Part shown: positions 16,145-60,839 of the stretch, piece by piece
How positions within the stretch are numbered: the first letter of the stretch is position 1
Layout: each line of letters opens with the position of its first letter
Origin: Paenibacillus sp. FSL R10-2782
GTDB taxonomy: Bacteria; Bacillota; Bacilli; Paenibacillales; Paenibacillaceae
Direction of reading: 5' to 3'
Assembly (NCBI RefSeq): GCF_038592985.1
Contig: NZ_CP151951.1
Span: 2,843,001-2,907,000 of the forward strand
DNA: 64,000 nt
The notes under the pieces: model-generated
Databases searched by the model: none
What the model was told of the DNA's origin: nothing
What the model saw: only the letters and a program-made list of their open reading frames with translations
Made by a program: the position numbers and the translations under genes

Positions 16145-16373
16145 AATCATAATCCTCTTTCCATAATGTCCTACGCGAATATTGCTACTGCAACGCTTTA
16201 GTGTGTGTCCCTGTCATCCGATTAATTATTAGCTAGCCCCTGTTTGAAGTCAAGGAGAAATGTCATATTTCTTTGCAGTGGAGGGCACATATACGGTAAA
16301 CTAGGTTGGAAAGATAAATTTTGTATTATTAAAAATGAAAAGGTATACAACCCGAGAAGGAGATGAGGATTTT

Positions 16374-17303
16374 ATGAGCTTAAAACCTTACAAACGAAGC
16401 AGAGTGGCCATTGTCGGCATGGGAGCGGTCGGTACAACGACCGGTTACACCCTCCTGCTACGCCAACGCATGTCAGAACTTGTCTTTATTGATGTTAATG
16501 TCAAAAAGGCGCAGGGGGAAATGCTCGATATGAATCACGGGCTTCCCTTTCTCGGCGGTGTCAAAGTGTGGGCGGGTGATTATGAAGACTGCCGTGATGC
16601 GGATATCATCATTGTTACAGCGGGCGCATCACAAAAACCGGGAGAAACACGCATTGATCTGCTCAAGCGTAATGCCGAAATTTTTGAAAGCATTATTGAT
16701 AATATCGTCAAGGTAAACACACACGGCATTTTACTGATCGCAACCAATCCAGTGGATATTCTCTCCTACATCTCCTGGAAACGTAGTGGCTGGCCTTCGA
16801 GCAGAGTTATCGGTTCGGGTACGCTGCTGGACAGCGCACGCTTCCGTTATTTGATTGGTAAGCAAAAGGGCATTGATCCTCGCAGCATCCACGCCCATAT
16901 TATTGGAGAACATGGCGATTCCGAGCTGCCTGTATGGAGCACGGCCAACATCGCAGGAACTCCATTGGAGCTGGGCGAAGAAACGAAAAATGAGATTTTT
17001 GAAAGTACCAAAAATGCAGCCTATGAAATTATAGATGCCAAAGGCGCGACTTCTTACGCCATCGGACTGGCTCTCGACCGGATCGTAGCCGCCATTCTGG
17101 GGGACGAAGGGTCGGTACTTAATGTGTCCACTTTGCTGGAAGATTATAACGGAGTATCTGACGTTTATCTAGGTGTTCCGAGTATCGTGGATCACAACGG
17201 TGTACGCGAAATTTTAGATCTTCCACTGAATGACAAGGAACGTCAAGGGCTGCATCAATCTGCGGACAAGCTGAAAGATCAAATCAGTAAACTCAACTTG
17301 TAG
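16374..17303 (+). CDS. ldh: L-lactate dehydrogenase
   Basis: 309 residues. NAD site VAIVGMGAVGTTTGY at the N-terminus, substrate and catalytic residues in SQKPGETRIDLL, TNPVDILSYI and the catalytic His in IIGEHGDSELPVW (about residue 185). It reduces pyruvate to L-lactate with NADH in fermentation. The ATG at 16374 (MSLKPYK) has GATGAGG 4 bases upstream. A second AAGGAG lies further out, and the earlier in-frame ATG at 16335 is less likely. No Rex-type operator is obvious upstream. Confidence 0.93.
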   Translation: MSLKPYKRSRVAIVGMGAVGTTTGYTLLLRQRMSELVFIDVNVKKAQGEMLDMNHGLPFLGGVKVWAGDYEDCRDADIIIVTAGASQKPGETRIDLLKRNAEIFESIIDNIVKVNTHGILLIATNPVDILSYISWKRSGWPSSRVIGSGTLLDSARFRYLIGKQKGIDPRSIHAHIIGEHGDSELPVWSTANIAGTPLELGEETKNEIFESTKNAAYEIIDAKGATSYAIGLALDRIVAAILGDEGSVLNVSTLLEDYNGVSDVYLGVPSIVDHNGVREILDLPLNDKERQGLHQSADKLKDQISKLNL

Positions 17304-17420: not shown

Positions 17421-18524
17421 TTACCAAGGCGGTGTATCTCCATCGGCAAACTCGTCTTCTTGCTGGCGTTTCTCTTTCAAGCGCTCAGCCACCGTTTCGA
17501 ACGATTCCGGTTGAAGCAGCTCAATCGGTGAAAAGCCTTTTTCAAACGTAAATGCGTCGCCTTCAATGATAAGCGCGTATCTATCATGCAGCTTCGTAAT
17601 ATGCAGCTTGGCCCCAAAGTCGGACAACAGTCCACGTACAGCCGTATCATCCAGCTTGAAGCGAACTTCAATTTCCGGTTTTAGCTCAACAATATGCTGT
17701 GCAGCCTCTACGACCTGAAGGGGTTCCCATTTTCCTTGCAAATCCCGTTTTTCACTGGCCGCCCACAGCTCCAGATCACGTTCCTCTTGCTGTCTTTCCT
17801 CATTGGAAGCATCTGGCCATTTCGTCTCTACATAGTTCTGTACGAAGCCCATGACATGCTCATTAACGATTTCTGGCATGGATTGCTCGTAGGTCACAAA
17901 TTTCAGAAAATCCTCAAAATACCGGGCATGCGAGGACTGGTGAATTTTAAGCTCCCACTCATCGTTCATCCCCTCCTCCAGCATGTAAGGATACATGATG
18001 GATTTCATATTACGGGCTGAAATGGCCATTTCGACCTCACTGACCAGACTGCTTTCGGTAATCCGGGCAATTTTAGGTTCAAAATCACATTTGAGCACAA
18101 AAATAAACGGATCATCGGAGTGTGTATTCAAGGTAGCCTGTACAATGATCAACGCTCCCCCGCGTACCGCGCTCGTATCCAGATACATCCGCACCAGATC
18201 GTCGCAGGCATTTTTAAAATCCTCCTTATCCTCTGCTGCCCGCAGCCGGGCGAACATATTGAAATTCGGATTACTGCTCAGTTCATGCTCCGGTTCGACG
18301 ATAAAGCGGCCAATTTTGGTCGGTGCCTGCTCTGTGCTCGGATTTTTCTCGACCTTCCGCTTGCTAATACGGGCAAATTCCCCGTCCAGGAATTTCTTAA
18401 CATCGCTCTCGTCATAATCATAGTCATCCATCGTAGCGTAATGCTTGTAGGACTTACCGCCTTGTCCTTCTTTTCCGTCCACCTGAATTACAAAAAAAGA
18501 TAAAAAGTCCACTTGAAAGTTCAT
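17421..18524 (-). CDS. DUF3900-family protein
   Basis: 367 residues. It matches the Bacillales DUF3900 family strongly, for example KFLDGEFARISKRKVEKNP, APTKIGRFIVEPEHEL, CDFEPKIARI and EVEMAISARNMKSIMYP. Soluble, with no known function; the family has been seen mainly in spore-formers. It marks the last conserved backbone gene before the accessory island at 18.6-25.2 kb. Its upstream region ends at dif-like site A, about 100 bp away. Confidence 0.8.
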   Translation of the reverse strand: MNFQVDFLSFFVIQVDGKEGQGGKSYKHYATMDDYDYDESDVKKFLDGEFARISKRKVEKNPSTEQAPTKIGRFIVEPEHELSSNPNFNMFARLRAAEDKEDFKNACDDLVRMYLDTSAVRGGALIIVQATLNTHSDDPFIFVLKCDFEPKIARITESSLVSEVEMAISARNMKSIMYPYMLEEGMNDEWELKIHQSSHARYFEDFLKFVTYEQSMPEIVNEHVMGFVQNYVETKWPDASNEERQQEERDLELWAASEKRDLQGKWEPLQVVEAAQHIVELKPEIEVRFKLDDTAVRGLLSDFGAKLHITKLHDRYALIIEGDAFTFEKGFSPIELLQPESFETVAERLKEKRQQEDEFADGDTPPW

Positions 18525-18627: not shown

Positions 18628-18655
18628 AGTTAACATAACTATTATTATGTAAATT
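18628..18655. repeat. dif-like 11-6-11 inverted-repeat site A
   Basis: Left arm AGTTAACATAA, centre CTATTA, right arm TTATGTAAATT. Each arm differs by one base from the ideal pair AGTTTACATAA/TTATGTAAACT. It has the spacing of Xer recombination sites and sits at the edge of the ABC-transporter remnant. Confidence 0.65.
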
Positions 18656-19193
18656 CATTTGTAGAATAGATTTAATTTTCTGTATCGTGTTCTCTCCTTG
18701 ATCAAAAAACATTTGACTAAATTGCGAACTGTTTCGAGGCGATGAGCAATAGCAATAACGGTTCGGCCTTGTACAAGGGGATCAATCACTTGCTGAATTT
18801 CCTTTTCATTTTCAGGATCAAGCGAAGAGGTGGCCTCATCCAGCAACACGATCGGCGAATCCTCTGAGAATGGCCCATGCGATGGAAATCCGTTGCTTTT
18901 CGCCACCCGACAATGTACTGCCGCCCTCAACTAGCCAGATGCCATACCCGTTTGGCAGCTTGAAAATAAAATCGTGACAGCAAGCTTAACGGCCGGCTGC
19001 TTCGATCTGTGCCTGCGTCGCATCACTTTTACCGAATCGAATGTTATTTCCAATGGTATCCTGAAACAGATTCACGTCCTGAAACAAAATAGATACCTTA
19101 CGTAACAGCGCCTCGGGGTCCATCTGCCTCATATCATCGGCGCCCAGCAGTACACTGCCCTGCTTCGGGTCATAAAAACGTGCGATCATACGT
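18655..19193 (-). pseudogene. Remnant of an ABC transporter ATPase domain
   Basis: A decayed nucleotide-binding domain of an exporter-type ABC protein. Reading starts inside the domain (MIARFYDPKQGSVLLG), so Walker A and the whole membrane domain are missing. The Q-loop region (SILFQDVNLFQDTIGNNI) ends at an in-frame TAA, directly after EAAGR. The signature [12 protein letters not shown] continues in the same frame, then a frameshift leads to [17 protein letters not shown] (Walker B and D-loop) and [11 protein letters not shown]. The C-terminus degrades close to site A. A Fur-box-like sequence abuts the 5' end, so the parent gene was probably iron-regulated. It cannot make a working transporter. 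Confidence 0.85.
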
Positions 19194-19212
19194 AATAATG
19201 ATTATCATTCTT
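19194..19212 (-). promoter_or_regulatory. Fur-box-like site next to the ABC remnant
   Basis: AATAATGATTATCATTCTT contains the Fur-type palindrome AATGATTATCATT and overlaps the truncated end of the ABC remnant. Confidence 0.55.
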
Positions 19213-19256
19213 ATTTTAAAGACAAAACCTGATTTTGTAGGGCTCGGAATATTTTA

Positions 19257-19284
19257 AGTTAACATAATATTTATTACGTAGTCT
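19257..19284. repeat. dif-like 11-6-11 site B
   Basis: Left arm AGTTAACATAA (identical to that of site A), centre TATTTA, right arm TTACGTAGTCT (three differences from the ideal arm). It separates the ABC remnant from the MutS2-like module. Confidence 0.6.
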
Positions 19285-19311
19285 ATTTCTTGTTACGATT
19301 TGAAGCTAGGC

Positions 19312-19340
19312 TTGACTTCGGTGCTGACTGATAGTATAGT
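19312..19340 (+). promoter_or_regulatory. Sigma-A promoter of the leader/MutS2-like transcript
   Basis: TTGACT (19312-19317), 17 bases, TATAGT (19335-19340). It begins a roughly 480-nt leader ahead of the MutS2-like gene. Confidence 0.75.
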
Positions 19341-19373
19341 GCTGATATATCTGTAATCAAGGGAGAGATTTTG

Positions 19374-19397
19374 ATGTCGGTGAACGTTCTTAACTAA
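19374..19397 (+). CDS. Leader peptide MSVNVLN
   Basis: A seven-codon ORF, ATG TCG GTG AAC GTT CTT AAC TAA, with AGGGAGAG 6 bases upstream. Codons 5 to 8 are exactly the left strand of a 12-bp inverted repeat whose right strand lies at 19481-19492. A ribosome on this ORF would therefore melt the structure. This is the layout of ribosome-controlled attenuators ahead of antibiotic-resistance genes. That role is inferred from position and pairing only. Confidence 0.55.
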   Translation: MSVNVLN

Positions 19398-19569
19398 GCA
19401 ACTTCATATTCAGGGAAGACCATTCAGGCGCTTGTGCCCTCCGGGGACAGGTTTTTTGATATTGTGTTTTTACCCTGACATTAGTTAAGAACATGCGGAT
19501 ATCATAAATCGCCTCAGGGATTATTTTCTTTTAGGCCTTATTCCGTGCTGTGTTCAGCGCGGTTTTTTT
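19386..19569 (+). promoter_or_regulatory. Structured attenuator-like leader with two terminator hairpins
   Basis: A perfect 12-bp repeat GTTCTTAACTAA/TTAGTTAAGAAC (19386-19397 with 19481-19492) encloses TCAGGG/CCCTGA (19410-19415 with 19473-19478). A second TCAGGG at 19514-19519 could compete for the same CCCTGA. A weak terminator (TGTGCCC-TCC-GGGGACA then TTTTTT, to 19457) and a strong one (CCGTGCTG-TGTT-CAGCGCGG then seven T, 19543-19569) follow. No ORF of size begins before the MutS2-like gene. Confidence 0.6.
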
Positions 19570-19666
19570 GTTTTCAGATTTTGTGAAATTCCTTTATATC
19601 CTTCCTATTCATGGGCTAATTAGCTTACAAATTGGTTTACTCATGGATGATTTGGGGAGGCATAAA

Positions 19667-19702
19667 TTGGAGCTACAAAAGCTGGAGTATAGGCTTATTT
19701 GA
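19667..19702 (+). CDS. Second small ORF (MELQKLEYRLI) between the terminators
   Basis: Eleven codons from TTG, with GGGGAGG 6 bases upstream, an unusually good ribosome site for a chance ORF. It lies after the 19569 terminator and before the 19728 terminator. It may be a second leader peptide or the stub of a lost gene. Confidence 0.35.
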   Translation: MELQKLEYRLI

Positions 19703-19726
19703 CGATAAATTCCCTACTTCCTTCAG

Positions 19727-19768
19727 GGCGGAGAATGAACGATTTGTTCATTCTCCGCCCTTTTTTTA
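19727..19768 (+). terminator. Strong terminator directly upstream of the MutS2-like gene
   Basis: Perfect stem GGGCGGAGAATGAAC / GTTCATTCTCCGCCC, loop GATTT, then TTTTTTT. It lies about 60 bp before the MutS2-like start, so transcripts from 19340 must read through it. It could also be the attenuator itself. Confidence 0.85.
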
Positions 19769-19826
19769 TTTCACAGAGAAGGCTCTAAACAATCCTAAAA
19801 TCACACACTAAAGGAGAGATTTATTC

Positions 19827-21788
19827 ATGAATGAAACCACAATGCAGCGTTTGGAATATGATCGGATCAAAACAAGAGTTTCCGAATGTGCTTTTTCTTA
19901 CCTTGGTAAGCGCCATGCCGCTTCCATGCAACCCATTACAGATATCCGTACGATCAAGATCCGCCTTGACGAAGCGATGGAAGCCCTGCAGCTCATTCGC
20001 CACGGTGCAAGTGTTCCTATCCCCTCGCTGGAAGGGATGGAACACATTCTTCACTTGCTGGGAATCGGATATTTGTTCAGCGAGCGCGATTTTTCTCACA
20101 TTGCCCAATTTATCAGAAGTTGCGGTCAACTGATAAAATATATGGGTTCCAAGTCGAATGCCGCTCCAAGCGTCAGTGCCTATGCTTCTTCCATGTATGA
20201 TATGGAACCGCTTCTGTCTGAAATTGAAAGATGTATTTATTCAGGAAAAGTGACGGACACCGCCAGTAAGGAACTGGCTAAAATCCGCAAAAAAATAGCA
20301 GTCACGGAAGAACGGATCAAAAGAAAACTTGATTCTCTCACCAGCCGTCACCGATCCATCATGCAGGAACATATGACCAGTCAGCGTGGCGGTCGTTACG
20401 TGCTTCCAATCAAAAAAGAGTTTCGAAAACAGGTGAAAGGCAACGTGCTGGATGAATCAGGCAGTGGACAAACGGTTTACATTGAGCCTGCCGAGATTGC
20501 AAGTCTCCAATACGATCAGAGCGCGAACATCGCAGAAGAAGCAAAAGAAGCAATGAAGGTACTGGGCGACCTAACGGCACTTGCTGAGTCATACAGCCGG
20601 GAGCTGAGCATCAACACAGAGACAGTAGGCATACTCGACTTTTTATTAGCAAAAGCCAAATACGCCATGACGATGGATGCTGTGCCTGTCGAGCTTAACC
20701 TTGACGGAATTATAGACATTCGAGGGGCACGTCACCCGTTGATGGGAAAATCTATGGTTCCACTTGATTTCTCAATCGGTGAAGGCTACTCTTCACTCAT
20801 CATTACCGGACCCAATACAGGTGGAAAAACGATGGCCCTCAAAAGTGTCGGCCTGTTAACTCTGATGGTACAATCCGGACTGCTGGTACCTGTTTCAGAA
20901 GGCTCACGAATGGCTGTATTCGAGAACATCGAGGTGGATATCGGAGACGGGCAAAGCATCGAGCATGCTTTGAGCACCTTTTCTGCACATATTCGCAACA
21001 TGATCGGTATTTTGGAAACGGCAAGCAACTCCACTCTGATCCTGATTGATGAAATGGCATCTGGAACCGATCCGGGCGAAGGCGTGGGCCTCTCTATCGC
21101 GCTGCTGGAAGAATTCCACCGCCGACAGGCAACGGTAGTAGCTACCACGCACTTTAGCGAAATTAAGCATTTTGCCGAAAATACACCTGGATTTCAGAAT
21201 GCCCGAATGGAGTTTGATACCGAAACGCTACAACCATTATACCGTCTCCGAATCGGTGAGGCCGGGGAAAGCTACGCATACGCCATTGCCTTGAAGCTGG
21301 GGATGTGGAATCGGATTATCGAGCGTTCTCAGGCCATTTCTGCGGGCAGAACATCTCAGAACACACAGGAACTGTTTGTGGTCCCCCCAGCTTCTAATGA
21401 TGAGAAGCACAAAACAACAAGTGAACTCTCTCCTAAAAGAGCATCTTTAAAGCACACAGCCACAAAACAGGGGAAACAAAAACACACTGCCGAACCTATG
21501 TCGTTTGCCCTTGGCGATAGTGTTTATGTAGGCTACCTGAATCGGACTGGAATTGTGTACAAAACCGAGGATGAACGAGGGAATGTAGGTGTTTTAATCC
21601 AAGGAGAGAAGCTGAGCATGAATAAAAAGAGGCTCGTCCTTCACATCGCAGCTACTGAATTGTATCCTGACGACTATGATCTGGATATCGTTTTAGAAAC
21701 CAAGGAAAACCGCAAAAAACGGAAGCTTATGGGACGCAAGCATATCGAAGGCTTGATGATTGAATCTCCCCCGGAAAATGAAATGTAG
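19827..21788 (+). CDS. MutS2-like ATPase without Smr domain
   Basis: 653 residues. The clamp/lever core (about 1-300) includes RHRSIMQEHMTSQRGGRYVLP and the IEPAEIASL region typical of MutS2. The ATPase domain has Walker A TGPNTGGKTMALKS (about residues 330-343) and Walker B STLILIDEMASGTDPGEG (about 402-419). After a charged, low-complexity linker (about 510-560) comes a small KOW-like domain (SFALGDSVYVGYLNRTGIVY). Full MutS2 is usually near 780 residues with a C-terminal Smr endonuclease domain; here it is absent. Bacillus MutS2 splits collided ribosomes, so a ribosome-linked role is possible. The ATG at 19827 has AAGGAGAG 8 bases upstream. It is the only intact gene between sites B and C. 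Confidence 0.85.
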   Translation: MNETTMQRLEYDRIKTRVSECAFSYLGKRHAASMQPITDIRTIKIRLDEAMEALQLIRHGASVPIPSLEGMEHILHLLGIGYLFSERDFSHIAQFIRSCGQLIKYMGSKSNAAPSVSAYASSMYDMEPLLSEIERCIYSGKVTDTASKELAKIRKKIAVTEERIKRKLDSLTSRHRSIMQEHMTSQRGGRYVLPIKKEFRKQVKGNVLDESGSGQTVYIEPAEIASLQYDQSANIAEEAKEAMKVLGDLTALAESYSRELSINTETVGILDFLLAKAKYAMTMDAVPVELNLDGIIDIRGARHPLMGKSMVPLDFSIGEGYSSLIITGPNTGGKTMALKSVGLLTLMVQSGLLVPVSEGSRMAVFENIEVDIGDGQSIEHALSTFSAHIRNMIGILETASNSTLILIDEMASGTDPGEGVGLSIALLEEFHRRQATVVATTHFSEIKHFAENTPGFQNARMEFDTETLQPLYRLRIGEAGESYAYAIALKLGMWNRIIERSQAISAGRTSQNTQELFVVPPASNDEKHKTTSELSPKRASLKHTATKQGKQKHTAEPMSFALGDSVYVGYLNRTGIVYKTEDERGNVGVLIQGEKLSMNKKRLVLHIAATELYPDDYDLDIVLETKENRKKRKLMGRKHIEGLMIESPPENEM

Positions 21789-21843
21789 ACGCACATGTAT
21801 ATTCTCAATTTAAAATAAGTTTTTTTGAATGCCAGTGAAATTT

Positions 21844-21888
21844 AATCTGCAAGCGGACACTTTGATTAGAGTGATCCACTTGCAGATT
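21844..21888 (+). terminator. Terminator after the MutS2-like gene
   Basis: AATCTGCAAG pairs with CTTGCAGATT, with an inner GGA-CACT/AGTG-TCC stem. The downstream T-run is weak (CTACTTGTTGTC). Confidence 0.65.
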
Positions 21889-21936
21889 CTACTTGTTGTC
21901 ATTTGAATACATTAATAGGACTCATAAATCTAGTTT

Positions 21937-21964
21937 AACTAACATAATATATATTATGTAATCC
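21937..21964. repeat. dif-like 11-6-11 site C
   Basis: Left arm AACTAACATAA, centre TATATA, right arm TTATGTAATCC. The inner eight bases of each arm follow the common pattern. It lies between the MutS2-like module and a truncated kinase. Confidence 0.65.
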
Positions 21965-21965
21965 T

Positions 21966-22142
21966 ATGGTTTATCAAATCATCTTTTAACATCAGCAGGG
22001 TCACGTTGTCTGGTGTATTTTTCAATCCAAAAATAGTCATCTCCATTCAAATTCACTTATGGGAGTCTCAGAGCCAGCTTACTTCCAAGCGACGATACTC
22101 CCGAGCCTGAAGCTCCAAGGATATGTATTCTGTTTTTCAAAC
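21966..22142 (-). pseudogene. Truncated and frameshifted P-loop kinase fragment
   Basis: On the minus strand the N-terminus reads KNRIHILGASGSGVSSLG (Walker A GASGSGVSS) and SKLALRLP, then hits TAA. The next frame gives NGDDYFWIEKYTRQRDPAD and a third gives LKDDLINHR. In order these resemble the first 60 or so residues of the adenylate-kinase-like/AAA ATPases common in Bacillales. Similarity stops exactly at site C. The rest of the gene is absent from the window. Confidence 0.7.
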
Positions 22143-22166
22143 CTCTTATATCAAACGTCTGTAACA

Positions 22167-22205
22167 CAAAAAAGGCGTGTCCAAAGTTAAAGGCACGCTC
22201 TTTTG
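22167..22205 (-). terminator. Terminator after the ROK kinase gene
   Basis: AAAAGGCGTG pairs with CACGCTCTTTT; the minus-strand transcript ends in TTTTTT. Confidence 0.7.
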
Positions 22206-22262
22206 TTAACATTTTATTTGTTTGTATTACTCAATCCCTTACTCGTCGAAATATAACTTTTG

Positions 22263-23168
22263 TCATAATTCAAGATGATACGATTGTTTGTAGTTATATA
22301 TAGCGCCTAGCAAATTCGCTTCATTGCCTAATTTACTTTGTTCAATATCTGCACGCACAAAATTATAGATAGATTCCATATAAAGCTTCTCCAACTCTTC
22401 CCTAATCGTAATTACCAGTAAAGGATTTTCAGATATGCCTCCCCCAATAACAAACTTTTCAGGGTCAAGAATCGATTGCAAATTAATGATTTGTGTTGCG
22501 ATGTTCCTACAGTATTCATGAAAAATCGTTTGGACCGCGCGATCACCTTCTTCAATGAACTTGAATACTTGTTCACCCGTTATTGAATCTGCAGGAAGTC
22601 CTTTAGCTTTCGCAACGGTTTTTGTTAAAACAAAACTACTCCCTTGCATACCAAACAAATAATCATCATTGTCTGCATACTCGCTGTTGGTTCTGATGAA
22701 GGAGAATTCTCCAGCCGATAAATGGTGGCCTTTCAGCAATTTCCCTTGAGAGATGATTCCACCCCCCATCCCTGTTCCAACTACCAGAACAACACCATCG
22801 GTAATCCCTTGTAATGAACCACGCCATGCTTCCCCAAGAGCAGCACACTTTCCATCATTTTCAATCGCTACGGGCTTGTGAAACGCTTTCTTAAAAACTT
22901 CTATCATATTTATATCATTTATATATCTTAATGAACCTCCATGCACCATATGGCCGCTTGCTGAATTCACAATACCTGGCATACTGACGGCTATACCTTC
23001 GCACTCATCCATAAACTGATTAAGAATTTGCTTTAAAGCTACAAGCAGATTCTCAAGTGAGTCCAATGGAGTTTTAACTTTACCCTTGCTCATAAATTCA
23101 CCTTGAAAATACAAACTGAATTTTATAAAAGAGCCGCCAATATCAAAAACCAGTATTTTATTTTTCAT
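22263..23168 (-). CDS. ROK-family sugar kinase (BglK/glucokinase-like)
   Basis: 301 residues. ATP-binding FDIGGSFIKFSLY at the N-terminus, VSMPGIVNSASG, the catalytic Asp in IENDGKCAALGEAW (about residue 103), and GTGMGGGIISQGKLLKGHH, where ROK enzymes bind the sugar. The zinc motif of many ROK regulators and glucokinases (CxCGxxGC) is missing, as in beta-glucoside kinases. No helix-turn-helix, so it is an enzyme and not a repressor. The gene is visibly richer in A+T than its backbone neighbours and has no sugar transporter beside it, which suits an acquired cargo gene. Confidence 0.85.
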   Translation of the reverse strand: MKNKILVFDIGGSFIKFSLYFQGEFMSKGKVKTPLDSLENLLVALKQILNQFMDECEGIAVSMPGIVNSASGHMVHGGSLRYINDINMIEVFKKAFHKPVAIENDGKCAALGEAWRGSLQGITDGVVLVVGTGMGGGIISQGKLLKGHHLSAGEFSFIRTNSEYADNDDYLFGMQGSSFVLTKTVAKAKGLPADSITGEQVFKFIEEGDRAVQTIFHEYCRNIATQIINLQSILDPEKFVIGGGISENPLLVITIREELEKLYMESIYNFVRADIEQSKLGNEANLLGAIYNYKQSYHLEL

Positions 23169-23479
23169 ACTACGTATAGTCCTTTCATTGAGCAGTTTTG
23201 AGTGGTTCTCTAAATAACGATAATTAATTTTATTGGTTTTGTAAATCCATCATTTTCTTTATCGTTAGTCAGACACCGTTCTCTTCGTTGGATTTAGTGA
23301 TAAAGCTAGCTGCATTATTGGCATCGTATTACTATTAAAAAAAGCTTCTGTACCTTTACTTTATTACCTTTGTCAAGGCAATACCATACTGGCTTTTAAT
23401 TCACCATTGCTTTCCAACTTATTCTGAATTATTCTAAGGTTTATCATATGACAATCGCTAAAATAAGGAGGCACATCTA
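23169..23479. other. Divergent intergenic region between the ROK kinase and DinB-like genes
   Basis: 311 bp, A+T-rich. It must carry the two divergent promoters, but no convincing -35/-10 pair, operator or hairpin stands out. Confidence 0.4.
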
Positions 23480-23935
23480 TTGAATAATACTGTTGAAGAA
23501 CTCGCTAGGCTCATCGAGGATCATGAAAAAGAATTCTTTTCGATCTCAGAACATGAATTTAATGCCAAACCTTTCCCAGAAAAATGGTCTAAAAAAGAAA
23601 TACTAGGGCATCTGTGCGACTCCGCTTCTAATAATCATCGAAGATTTATAATGATTAAGCATTCAAGGTCCCCTGTTAAAATTGAAGCATATGCGCAAAA
23701 TGATTGGGTTGCAGCTAATCAGTATCAGGAAGCGTTCTCCCACGCGGATGTCATACATCTATGGAAACTATTAAATAAACAAATCATAAATATGTTAAAC
23801 TCATGTACATCACTCGATTTTGAGAAAGAATTTCAAAAAGATGACCAGTCTACCGAAACATTACAGTGGCTAGTTGACGATTATATTCAGCATATGCAGC
23901 ATCATTTGGATCAAATCAATCAAAAACAAGAATAA
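23480..23935 (+). CDS. DinB-superfamily protein
   Basis: 151 residues, a four-helix DinB/YfiT-like metal-binding protein. The probable metal His residues are in ILGHLCDSASNNHRR and in the C-terminal IQHMQHHLDQIN. Family members are thiol (bacillithiol)-dependent S-transferases or stress-induced proteins of unknown substrate. The start is TTG at 23480, with AAGGAGG 8 bases upstream. A+T-rich like the neighbouring ROK gene. It lies just before dif-like site D. Confidence 0.8.
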   Translation: MNNTVEELARLIEDHEKEFFSISEHEFNAKPFPEKWSKKEILGHLCDSASNNHRRFIMIKHSRSPVKIEAYAQNDWVAANQYQEAFSHADVIHLWKLLNKQIINMLNSCTSLDFEKEFQKDDQSTETLQWLVDDYIQHMQHHLDQINQKQE

Positions 23936-24021
23936 GTACGATGATAAAGGATACTATGTTCACAATATGGATGACACAAGTCGTTGATGCGATTTCCAAG
24001 TCAGGGTGCAATTCTTTTTTT

Positions 24022-24049
24022 GGTTTACATAATATTTTTTATGTAAACC
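24022..24049. repeat. dif-like 11-6-11 site D
   Basis: Left arm GGTTTACATAA, centre TATTTT, right arm TTATGTAAACC. The two arms are perfect inverted copies of each other. It lies 38 bp beyond the stop codon of the tyrosine recombinase. Confidence 0.7.
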
Positions 24050-24087
24050 AAATGTGTTTATTTTCAAAATCAACTCCTGGTATATAC

Positions 24088-25044
24088 TTATAATCCCGTT
24101 ATTGGTAGCTGGACATCCAGCTTGTCCATCGCTTTTTCCTTTTCCCGATCCGTGACATGCGTGTATACAGTGGTGGTCTGAATGGAAGAGTGTCCCAGCA
24201 ACTCTTGCACAGTACGCAGATCTGCACCTCTACGCAAAAGCATCGTTGCAAACGTATGACGCAGCTTATGGCTGGAGTAAGCCACTCGACCTTGCGCACC
24301 TTTATCCTGCTGGAATCGCTCGAACGTTTCTGTAGCGATCTGCTGGATAGAGCGAACCGCCAGTCGGCGGCCTTTTTGCGACACGAACATCGCATCCTCC
24401 TTCCCTCTCCACGGCGTTAATCTTTCCTCCAATGCACGATCTAAAACATCACACACAGCCTCCGGCACCGGGAGCGTACGCCACTTTCTCCCTTTACCAA
24501 ACACATCCAGTGTGCGTCGCTCACGGCTGTAATCCGGGACATTCAAAGAATGAACCTCTCCCACCCGTAATCCCATATATACCATGAGCAGAAAAATAGC
24601 CATGTTGCGATTGGCATATTTCCCTTCCACCGCGAGTAAAAATGGCCGAATTTCATTTTCATCCAGGTACACGGGCATACGATTCTTTTCGGTCTTTGCT
24701 TTTTTAATTCCGAAAGCCGGATTCGTGCTGCACAATTCAAATTCCTGTAGCGCTTTAAAAAAGCTACTCACCGCTGCATGCTTGCGGTTCCGGGTGCTAT
24801 CTCCAGCTCCGCCTTCCCGAGCTTTAGACAGATACGACATCACATGAATCTTTTTCACCTGATCGAGTGGTTTATCCCGCAACGTGAGTAAGAACTGCTT
24901 CACATCCCCTGTATAGTTTTTTTGCGTATGTATCGTATAACCTGCATCTTTCATCCAAATCAAAAAAGCCTCCAGTTCCTCAGCATATACTTCATCAATA
25001 TCATCTATCATATCCGGCTCCATTTGCCGTACCCCTTTTTTCAT
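24088..25044 (-). CDS. Tyrosine recombinase/integrase (XerC/D-like)
   Basis: 318 residues. A SAM-like core-binding domain (about 15-105) is followed by the catalytic domain. All active-site residues are present: Arg in [10 protein letters not shown] (about 160), Lys in [12 protein letters not shown] (about 183), His-x-x-Arg in [11 protein letters not shown] (about 260), His in [10 protein letters not shown] (about 283) and the nucleophile Tyr in TTVYTHV (about 293). The ATG at 25044 follows GGAGG at 8 bases. It is bracketed by dif-like sites D and F and is the best candidate to act on sites A to E. It could be a diverged phage-type integrase instead. Confidence 0.9.
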
Positions 25045-25169
25045 CCCGATTACCTCCGCTCCGATTCATCTTCCAATATACTGTAAAACGTCCATTTTCG
25101 CCTACTTTTTATCGACAATTCGATCGACATCTTGTGCGTGAGGGCTAATAAAAGTCGATTTAAACCAAA

Positions 25170-25197
25170 ATTGCGTATAATTTATATTATGCGCAGT
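25170..25197. repeat. Divergent dif-like site F
   Basis: Left arm ATTGCGTATAA, centre TTTATA, right arm TTATGCGCAGT. Same 11-6-11 layout and inner TATAA...TTATG, but the outer bases differ from sites A to E. It lies 125 bp upstream of the recombinase gene. Confidence 0.4.
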
Positions 25198-52676: not shown

Positions 52677-52806
52677 ATTTTCACCTCTCTTGACGGATTA
52701 GTTCGTTCTTTACTTCGATTCGCATTCCATCTTATATTACATTCCATCCGGTGCTGTTCAAAATATGCTAAAATACATATATTATGACCGGACGAGGTGG
52801 AGCCCA

Positions 52807-53907
52807 ATGAATATACAAAAGATCATCGACCGGCGCAAACTGGATGAAAAAATGCCAGGATTGCCATGGTACGTGCAGCAATTTATGGATTACAAGCTAC
52901 CTGACCTGTCCCCTTCCACATTGCTGGAATATGTGCGGGATTATGAAGCTTTTTTTGCATGGCTTCGCTCGGAAGGCTTATCTGTAGGAGAGACGAACGC
53001 CCAAGTTACACTGGAAGAATTGGAGACGCTCCATATGGATAGTATTACAGGCTATCGTTTGTTTCTATCGACTAAGCGTGAAGCCTCCAATTCCCGTATT
53101 ACGATTTCACGCAAGCTTTCGTCCCTGCGTTCCCTCTTTCATTATTTGAGCCAGATCGCTGAGGATGAAAACTTTTATCCTTTACTCAAGCGCAACATTA
53201 TGGCCAAGGTCGAAATCAAGCGCATACATAAACCCAAGGACACGGCGGCCAAGCTCAAAGGAAAAATACTGGAGGAGGAAGAGCTGCTTGAATTTATCGG
53301 CTACATTTATGAAGGCTATGGACAAGATTTGGCCGGTAACAAGCAGGCACTGTACTCCTATGAGCTGAACAAGGAACGTGACGCCTGTATCGCCAGTCTG
53401 ATTCTAAATTCGGGCCTGCGCGTATCTGAAATCGTCAATCTGAATCTGGACGATCTGGATGTAAACAATAAATTACTATATGTGTATCGTAAAGGCAACA
53501 ACGACGAGACCTTTAAAACGCCAGTATATTTCCGCGAGCAGTCCAAAGATGATCTGGCACTCTATTTGTCTCTGCGGCATACTCGTTATCGCGCACCCAA
53601 AAAGGAAAAAGCGCTCTTCGTCGCACGTCCCAACGGTAGTACAGAAGGCAAACGAATGACCAAAAGAGCGATTCAGGCGATGATTATCAAGTATGCCAAA
53701 CGGTTCGGCAAGCCTTACCTGACCGTTCACAAGCTCCGTCATTCCTTTGCCACCGACTACTATTTGCAAAACGATATCTACAAAACGAAGGAACAGCTCG
53801 GTCACGCCTCCACAGAAACGACAGAAGTTTATGCCCATCTGACCGACAAGACCATGTCCCAAGCGATTGAACGGCGGGTGGATACTCAAGCCGACTCAGC
53901 CGATTAA
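52807..53907 (+). CDS. xerS: XerS-like tyrosine recombinase
   Basis: 366 residues, the length of Firmicute XerS. An N-terminal core-binding domain (about 15-150, LPWYVQQFMDYKL, SLRSLFHYLSQI) is followed by a catalytic domain with Arg in NSGLRVSEIVNL (about 220), Lys in VYRKGNNDETF, His-x-x-Arg in TVHKLRHSFATDY (about 318), His in LGHASTETT and Tyr in TEVYAHL (about 347). XerS resolves chromosome dimers alone at difSL sites in streptococci. The start is ATG 52807, after AGGTGGAG. It may be the housekeeping recombinase, while the gene at 24.1 kb belongs to the island. Confidence 0.88.
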   Translation: MNIQKIIDRRKLDEKMPGLPWYVQQFMDYKLPDLSPSTLLEYVRDYEAFFAWLRSEGLSVGETNAQVTLEELETLHMDSITGYRLFLSTKREASNSRITISRKLSSLRSLFHYLSQIAEDENFYPLLKRNIMAKVEIKRIHKPKDTAAKLKGKILEEEELLEFIGYIYEGYGQDLAGNKQALYSYELNKERDACIASLILNSGLRVSEIVNLNLDDLDVNNKLLYVYRKGNNDETFKTPVYFREQSKDDLALYLSLRHTRYRAPKKEKALFVARPNGSTEGKRMTKRAIQAMIIKYAKRFGKPYLTVHKLRHSFATDYYLQNDIYKTKEQLGHASTETTEVYAHLTDKTMSQAIERRVDTQADSAD

Positions 53908-60811: not shown

Positions 60812-60839
60812 AGTTTACATAATATATATTATGTAAACT
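60812..60839. repeat. dif-like 11-6-11 site E, perfect palindrome
   Basis: Left arm AGTTTACATAA, centre TATATA, right arm TTATGTAAACT: a perfect 28-bp palindrome and the best copy of the site family. It lies alone between the deacetylase terminator and the LysM-3D gene. Confidence 0.7.

Follow-up and report, generated by a model that had tools for sequence, protein, structure and literature searches.

We analysed a 64,000-nucleotide stretch (the window; 2.843-2.907 Mb of the 5.60-Mb single-contig chromosome of Paenibacillus sp. FSL R10-2782) that holds several dif-type sites beside a gene for a Xer-like tyrosine recombinase, here called rec1. Comparison with related genomes suggests that dif-type Xer sites gained and exchanged gene modules beside this conserved recombinase, without XerC or strict alternation, a reading to which we give a probability of roughly 0.58. 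Observed were the sites, their clustering, their linkage to rec1 and XerS, the loss of XerC and of the canonical dif, relatives with a single site, and changes of gene content. As judged from sequence, the locus is an array of gene blocks flanked by dif-like sites with content change, with exceptions noted below.

Dif-type sites in the window

Each site is a 28-mer of 11-6-11 layout, scored as matches out of 22 to AGTTTACATAA-N6-TTATGTAAACT. The sites and the two recombinase genes are as follows.

18628..18655: site A, AGTTAACATAA CTATTA TTATGTAAATT, 20/22
19257..19284: site B, AGTTAACATAA TATTTA TTACGTAGTCT, 18/22
21937..21964: site C, AACTAACATAA TATATA TTATGTAATCC, 17/22
24022..24049: site D, GGTTTACATAA TATTTT TTATGTAAACC, 20/22; just 3' of rec1
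24088..25044, minus strand: rec1, Xer-like tyrosine recombinase, 318 amino acids
25170..25197: F, 6+7 = 13/22; not counted as a site
52765..53907, plus strand: XerS, 380.2 bits against an NCBIfam (NF003462) cut-off of 267
60812..60839: sixth site, a perfect 28-bp palindrome, AGTTTACATAA TATATA TTATGTAAACT; about 7 kb from the xerS gene

An earlier note on this DNA had proposed five 11-6-11 sites, of which A, B, C and D stand (20, 18, 17 and 20/22) and F falls away (13/22); it had overlooked the palindrome at 60812-60839. With a threshold of at least 16/22 and at least 10/12 in the inner positions, the window holds exactly A, B, C, D and 60812; among 40 shuffles 36 were empty and the maximum was 2, and the reversed motif gave none (without the inner rule, it matched 4 times in the window at 16 or more). 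At 15/22 or more with at least 9/12 inside, the window gave 9 matches, ten shuffles 0-2 and the reversed motif 6. Exact inner cores occur five times in 5.6 Mb, four of them in the window, vs. 0 for the reversed control. When the genome was searched for TATAATATATATTATGTAAACT with up to 3 mismatches, 60812 alone matched with fewer than 3 (1 mismatch, both strands), and site C and a position at 760802 matched with 3. A mismatch-tolerant short core was dropped as stand-alone evidence because it did no better than shuffles or the reversed control: with up to 2 mismatches it occurred 7 times in the window, a count reached by 8 of 100 shuffles (not significant), and with up to 1 mismatch it was not enriched genome-wide (22 vs. 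24 in the reversed control).

A site is present at the 60812 position in all seven polymyxa-group relatives fetched and in Paenibacillus terrae PIC167, and we regard this palindrome as a candidate main dif.

Gene content changes at sites

Window and relatives part at or inside site A. Between flanks about 96% identical, homology to genome G034 runs as far as 18655, where A has its last base; 66 bp past A the two align again, at 89.7%, in a shared ABC block. Homology to G006, again with flanks about 96% identical, stops at 18651 inside A and resumes at 19302, 18 bp past B. In the family of site A, identity was 0.89 in the left flank, 0.91 in the left arm, 0.68 in the centre, 0.76 in the right arm and 0.61 in the right flank (random, 0.56), a fall across the site that is expected if exchange happens within it. 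A conserved left flank was joined to an unrelated right flank in 17 of 36 pairs of this family, and the reverse was found in 0/36; the flanks of family B mirror this pattern (9/45 vs. 0).

Breakpoints across genomes were counted against a null of random intergenic positions. Unique intergenic breakpoints lay within 30 bp of a site in 28 of 169 cases, compared with 13.9 ± 3.7 for the null, whose maximum in 2000 draws was 27, so that 28 was never reached; a breakpoint lies this close to 29 of the 40 sites. A uniform-position null (130 of 768 breakpoints within 50 bp vs. 19 expected) overstates the enrichment, and the intergenic null was therefore used.

The island as an array in the polymyxa group

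We mapped 20 kb around rec1 in 60 genomes of the genus (two maps were shorter). Other genes and features of the island are listed here; the name of the first comes from its annotated homologue in NZ_CP013204.1.

16335..17303, plus strand: L-lactate dehydrogenase, left anchor of the rec1 locus
17421..18524, minus strand: DUF3900 protein, left neighbour of site A
18655..18930, minus strand: ABC ATPase remnant, 3' part
18986..19189, minus strand: ABC ATPase remnant, 5' part
19370..19560, plus strand: structured leader of the MutS2-like gene, z -5.2, no Rfam family
19827..21788, plus strand: MutS2-like ATPase, 653 amino acids, covering mutS2 profile positions 1-517 of 790
22057..22212, minus strand: stub open reading frame, 51 amino acids, left end of the C-D module; a putative kinase according to the earlier note
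22263..23168, minus strand: ROK family protein, C-D module cargo
23480..23935, plus strand: DinB superfamily protein, C-D module cargo

A single site lies between lactate dehydrogenase and rec1 in 37 of the 60 genomes. An above-threshold site is found in that interval in 27 of the 32 genomes with the order lactate dehydrogenase, rec1, permease; at a threshold of 13/22, all 37 lactate-dehydrogenase genomes have a site before rec1, with a strong arm of 9-11/11 (lactate dehydrogenase fell within the mapped stretch in 43 genomes, of which G000, G031, G032, G037, G016 and G036 were set aside).

The 11 genomes of the polymyxa group instead share the order DUF3900, A, cargo, B, MutS2-like gene, C, cargo, D, rec1, with 2-5 above-threshold sites per mapped stretch framing the cargo. 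Site B went undetected in G014 and D in G045 and G037, and A was unmapped in G045 and G004. The MutS2-like gene is present in 11/11; every one of them has a site after it, and 10 (all but G014) also have one before it. Cargo between A and B is of at least three types: the ABC block (the window and G034), epoxide hydrolase and AraC genes (G006, and G045 to the left of B), and an MFS gene (G013, G014, G031, G032, G037 and G040). The C-D module ranges from 0.8 to 5.4 kb. Three genomes (G013, G014 and G040) have a good extra site 433-861 bp upstream of rec1 with a module holding an MBL-fold gene, and three others (G005, G017 and G051) have a site, an FAD oxidoreductase gene, a second site and then rec1. 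Site B has its strong arm on the left in 9/10 and C on the right in 9/11 polymyxa-group genomes; A and D are near-symmetric in most. The cargo names MFS, epoxide hydrolase, AraC, MBL-fold, HAD, MATE, PEP-synthase-like and collagen-like are by-eye readings of sequence, not Pfam assignments.

One of the modules proposed in the earlier note, the ABC remnant, has a longer counterpart in a close relative: at 89.7% identity, window 18721-19197 aligns with a portion of the ABC block of G034. This visible reduction is what one would expect if the modules were decayed integrative elements using host Xer (IMEX-like) and rec1 merely an old neighbour, and among the matches listed there are rec1 relatives of 44-48% identity on Paenibacillus plasmids. 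We consider this explanation quite improbable. Pfam and NCBIfam recognised no phage or plasmid gene in the island, for seven window proteins, nor did inspection by eye in the cargo of relatives; none of the 12 motif-bearing viral contigs found encodes a detectable relative of the four queried Xer proteins, and phage records gave no match of at least 60% identity. Moreover, the site 3' of rec1 is retained where cargo is absent.

Other features of the locus were noted in passing. The leader of the MutS2-like gene folds much better than its shuffles (z -5.2; 0/200 shuffles as good), and its long inverted repeat, GTTCTTAACTAA / TTAGTTAAGAAC, suggests an attenuator; Rfam returned two microRNA matches only, far under their gathering scores. 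Between C and rec1, G045 (L107) carries a PEP-synthase-like cargo gene that by eye resembles rifampin phosphotransferase. In G021, G023, G033 and G047, which fall in two separate clades, homologous inserts with a long short-period repeat (by eye, collagen-like) occupy the same place between lactate dehydrogenase and rec1.

Rec1 is a conserved Xer-like recombinase

Rec1 has a Phage_integrase domain (Pfam PF00589), and its residues R160, K184, H259, R262, H285 and Y294, which we take to be catalytic, are intact in the alignment. In a tree of 43 sequences (with long-branch warnings), its clade is separate from XerC, XerD and XerS with support of 100/97. It is not XerC by score (200.8 bits vs. a TIGR02224 cut-off of 335), by clade or by position, as it does not lie between trmFO and hslV, and it falls short of an integron integrase (127.4 bits vs. 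an integrase_gron cut-off of 265).

Rec1 is present in 58 of 59 other genomes of the genus, at 65-93% identity; the copies in G004 and G026 hold one in-frame stop each, and the rec1-like copy of G053 (48%) falls in a second clade together with a plasmid copy. The closest named homologue is that of P. terrae PIC167, 99% identical. Rec1 adjoins lactate dehydrogenase in 37/60 genomes, and the order lactate dehydrogenase, rec1, permease is kept in 32/60. Rec1 had been described as a module of its own with a site on each side; since F is not a site, rec1 here is not a two-site module, and it reads instead as a conserved gene next to lactate dehydrogenase. That rec1 is the mobile integrase of the island is ruled out by its carriage in 58/59 genomes and by its position between lactate dehydrogenase and permease.

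Plasmid pHD01 (NZ_CP013204.1; rec1 92%) was considered as an excised circle and rejected. Its first 58 kb are collinear with the window, with gaps, its genes are chromosomal and its record starts mid-gene, so that it reads as a chromosomal contig labelled plasmid, and the public record would seem to represent part of the chromosomal terminus.

Sites cluster near rec1 and XerS

In 13 of the 60 genus genomes, ACRTAANWWWWNTTAYGT gave 51 matches, 49 of them no more than 60 kb from rec1 and the other two in G040 and G013; in the same genomes the reversed control matched 6 times. The clustering near rec1 homologues that the earlier note had proposed to look for is thus borne out. Among the best 80 of 148 named rec1 loci (Paenibacillus, Saccharibacillus and a single record under the name Bacillus), 42 have a site no more than 400 bp away on the 3' side of rec1 and 11 on the 5' side, compared with 15 sites elsewhere in the 326 kb of these loci and 4 matches to the reversed motif in all.

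The link is not to a single recombinase, as had been supposed. At a looser threshold (15/22), 20 of the 40 genus genomes scanned have a site 34-428 bp 3' of xerS, and 9 of 15 f6 genomes, several of them without rec1, have one 3-152 bp 5' of the gene. XerS is tied to sites as well, also in f6 genera that gave no close relative of rec1.

The island is placed near the putative replication terminus of the chromosome (GC skew is -0.05 in the 20 kb left of the window), and site orientation follows GC skew (91 vs. 26 of 117 asymmetric sites; stretches overlap, so a few may be counted twice). In G010, G021, G023, G033, G038, G047 and G056, sites or xerS lying hundreds of kb from rec1 carry the strong arm on the opposite strand, the outcome to be expected of inversions around the terminus that keep orientation relative to replication. 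Taken together, these genome comparisons support a real, genus-wide, terminus-clustered family of sites linked to Xer-type recombinases.

Loss of XerC and of the canonical dif

The host XerD scores above its cut-off (353 vs. 330 bits; it was profiled in the host genome, and elsewhere XerC-profile matches of 256-297 bits were taken as XerD). XerC, by contrast, exceeds its cut-off in 16 of 99 genomes (our own included) and in 0 of the 60 genomes of the genus. XerC sits between hslV and a gene we take to be trmFO in 3/3 other genomes, and in 7/7 XerC-less genomes (G000, G034, G024, G056, G005, G097 and G086) hslV comes straight after trmFO.

Of 26 genomes searched, 14 have a dif whose left arm is of the CCGATAA form and whose right arm is TTATGTAAACT or close to it, so that the B. 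subtilis dif arm named in the earlier note fits in kind. These include 13 of 15 genomes with XerC over the cut-off (it is missing in G075 and G085; G089, also over the cut-off, was left out of the dif search) and G069, just under the XerC cut-off. This dif was found in 0 of the other 10 genomes, all without XerC over the cut-off, and none of the four genus genomes searched has an ordinary dif. The arm lost along with XerC is the XerC arm, and the strong arm of the new sites is the remaining one; measured against the canonical bacillar dif (XerC arm, 6-bp centre, XerD arm), the sites have the XerD-type arm and lack the XerC-type arm. Paenibacillus thus seems to have lost XerC and the XerC arm of dif. 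G060 and G088 carry both the canonical dif and new-type sites, which makes the new sites a second set and not merely worn dif.

A dif-like arm on both sides, as first described, is exact only in some sites; many relatives have one strong and one variable arm. Nor is a single recombinase for both halves implied, given that XerD is kept here, the strong arm is XerD-type and the second arm varies between clades.

XerS (52765-53907) was matched in 59/59 other genus genomes at 81-98% identity (9/59 matches hold one in-frame stop) and in f6 genomes at 64-71%. The sites could serve dimer resolution only, by XerS or by XerS and XerD, as redundant copies in a variable terminus where cargo changes by homologous recombination. 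The universal XerS fits this explanation, as do the sites beside xerS, the conserved site positions and mostly single orientation relative to GC skew, and the loss of XerC with its dif arm, after which another enzyme must resolve dimers. We nevertheless think it unlikely, because it predicts neither homology that ends inside a site, nor an enrichment of breakpoints over other intergenic DNA, nor the step from a single site in 37 relatives to the polymyxa-group array.

We also observed that xerS lies about 560-690 bp from dif in five relatives with the canonical dif (G062, G065, G070, G080 and G087), as if XerS travels with dif ahead of XerC loss. In four relatives, a second 11-6-11 palindrome, TGTTCACAAAA-N6-TTTTGTGAACA in kind, lies about 420-1260 bp from the canonical dif (L209 2026, L210 1919, L215 1041 and, as a variant, L222 2762). 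The f9 genomes G067, G074, G078 and G081, which represent one family of the order, have weak XerC-profile matches only (best E 1e-38 to 1e-57) and keep XerS at 66-67%; dif was not found in them.

Recent change at the sites

Compared with PIC167, site order is the same and spacing near-identical in the window. Differences fall on 4 of 112 bases in the four island sites and on 92 of 9883 in the remainder of the 10-kb stretch; site 60812 has 2 among its 28 bases, next to each other in the same arm. Together the five sites changed more than their surroundings (6/140 vs. 92/9883; P = 0.0025, Fisher test). Site A differs in the centre and D at its first and last base together. The raised divergence would fit exchange between sites, and also quasi-palindrome correction.

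Could the palindromes be operators, terminators or products of such correction, with no recombination at all? The paired changes in D and 60812 are what template switching in an imperfect palindrome would give, and site A lies about 100 bp from the DUF3900 start. This explanation is highly improbable in view of the position of D and 60812, and of C when the stub or the ROK gene is counted, between the ends of convergent genes, and of the 11-6-11 geometry, the dif-matching strong arm and the Xer-family neighbours found across genera. The pattern that the earlier note had set against its own proposal, of single operators with no change in gene content, was not seen; yet many relatives have one conserved site.

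A model for module gain and exchange

For module gain and exchange at dif-type sites, we infer strand exchange at the sites, the enzymes that act there and insertion of circular modules as the route. The strong arm (AGTTTACATAA) is identical to the XerD-type arm of ordinary dif, and the variable arm would presumably be bound by another member of the Xer family, with rec1 the likeliest at the island and XerS at the sites beside xerS. A Xer tetramer, in which XerD occupies the strong arm and the other arm is taken by rec1 or XerS, would exchange strands in the 6-bp centre. In the 37 relatives a single site of this kind stands between lactate dehydrogenase and rec1. In the polymyxa group, modules would then have been added next to rec1, every insertion leaving a site at each edge, to produce the array A-(cargo)-B-(MutS2)-C-(cargo)-D-rec1, and the A-B and C-D cargo would later have been exchanged or deleted. 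Differing centres would limit exchange to matching pairs and so keep arrays stable. The B-C interval, mostly between oppositely oriented sites, holds the constant MutS2-like gene, and A-B and C-D hold the variable cargo; a constant B-C would follow if release needs like-oriented sites, although A and D are too symmetric for proof.

More tentatively, and with some doubt on our part, XerC/dif may have been replaced in Paenibacillus by a different terminus system, in which XerD is kept, XerS and rec1 lie beside dif-type sites, several mostly co-oriented sites are maintained near the terminus, and the rec1 site also serves as an integron-like entry point for exchangeable gene modules.

Several observations weigh against module exchange at the sites. 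Breakpoint enrichment over the intergenic null is only twofold, and breakpoints drawn from many pairs cannot be treated as independent. Family B has the lower conservation in the arm next to its conserved flank (0.68 vs. 0.89), and families C (3 vs. 2 of 55) and D (4 vs. 4 of 36) have no clear one-sided pattern. Among eight inserts between lactate dehydrogenase and rec1, two begin at a site (in G030 inside it, in G038 5 bp past it), that of G007 stops about 50 bp before the site, and those of G021, G023, G033, G047 and G050 stop at the lactate dehydrogenase end. The 6-bp centres often differ within one genome, which should hinder exchange between sites. No recombination product (circle, inversion or excised junction) was seen, and the comparison with PIC167, 99% identical here and with the same modules, caught no within-species movement. 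Moreover, f6 genera have sites at XerS where no close rec1 relative was found, hence rec1 is not needed for sites, and outside the genus 7 of 8 rec1-like genes have no site within 400 bp (G084 is the sole exception). The association of content change with sites is thus real but not universal: the change exactly between sites that the earlier note had proposed to test for holds at the edge of A and in the breakpoint enrichment, and fails for most inserts outside the polymyxa group.

Comparison with known systems

Among the matches listed, the open-access literature gave no pointer to dif-like modules, XerS or XerC loss in Paenibacillus and no description of the rec1 family. In the portions available, one paper combines Paenibacillus, a dif site and XerC with topoisomerases as its subject (PMC7614492), and neither the main text of a 2011 dif survey (PMC3025954) nor PMC8138268 names Paenibacillus. 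What appears to be new here is that Xer/dif-type sites frame chromosomal modules in a genus that lacks XerC and has a conserved Xer-like recombinase family of its own. If true, this would carry dif-module exchange, known from Acinetobacter, into a large genus of Gram-positive soil and plant bacteria, where a dedicated recombinase would take the place of the host XerC. It would raise the question of how dimers are resolved in a XerC-less genus, and whether segregation and gene capture are split between two recombinases; the rec1 locus would offer natural replicates, from single-site to five-site species.

Integrons place a Xer-related recombinase beside a primary site and an array of inserted genes, and the rec1 locus resembles them in that arrangement. 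It is unlike them in its short near-palindromes, in cargo blocks that hold one to several genes pointing either way, and in the integrase score of rec1.

XerS/difSL of streptococci and lactococci (PMC5357621) is similar in that XerS is encoded here and a site adjoins xerS in many relatives; in the window, the nearest above-threshold site is about 7 kb from xerS. However, difSL measures 31 bp, has a centre of 11 bp and differs in its arms (PMC5357621), and here the centres are 6 bp, the strong arm is XerD-type and XerD is kept. The sites beside xerS in relatives likewise have 6-bp centres, and arms unlike those of difSL, and so are not of the difSL kind, although the difSL sequence itself was not searched. 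With XerCD/dif of B. subtilis (CodV/RipX; PMC5357621) the sites share the 11-6-11 layout, a strong arm equal to the right dif arm of relatives and the terminus location; unlike there, XerC and the XerC-type arm are absent, and each chromosome has several sites, not one. XerH/difH (PMC5241119) is comparable in that one Xer enzyme can act on a site with identical arms, but it is a single-recombinase system of another phylum, and the palindrome there is an engineered substrate. XerL/dif of Legionellales (PMC9765430) is likewise a distinct single-recombinase Xer system, found via a dif-integrating mobile element; it belongs to another bacterial clade, and its abstract mentions no multi-site array.

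The parallel drawn in the earlier note was to the dif modules of Acinetobacter, which occur on plasmids (PMC13141974) and on chromosomes (PMC12907356). The two share 28-bp dif-related sites of 11-6-11 layout, short blocks with varied cargo, multi-module arrays and chromosomal examples. In Acinetobacter, XerC and XerD act, and XerC-internal and XerD-internal modules must alternate (PMC13141974, PMC12907356). The likeness holds for content change at sites and not for the rule of inverse orientation and alternation, as judged by the orientations of B, C, A and D: unlike in Acinetobacter, XerC is absent, a Xer-like recombinase is encoded at the array, the array lies on a Paenibacillus chromosome, and B and C are mostly asymmetric with A and D near-symmetric.

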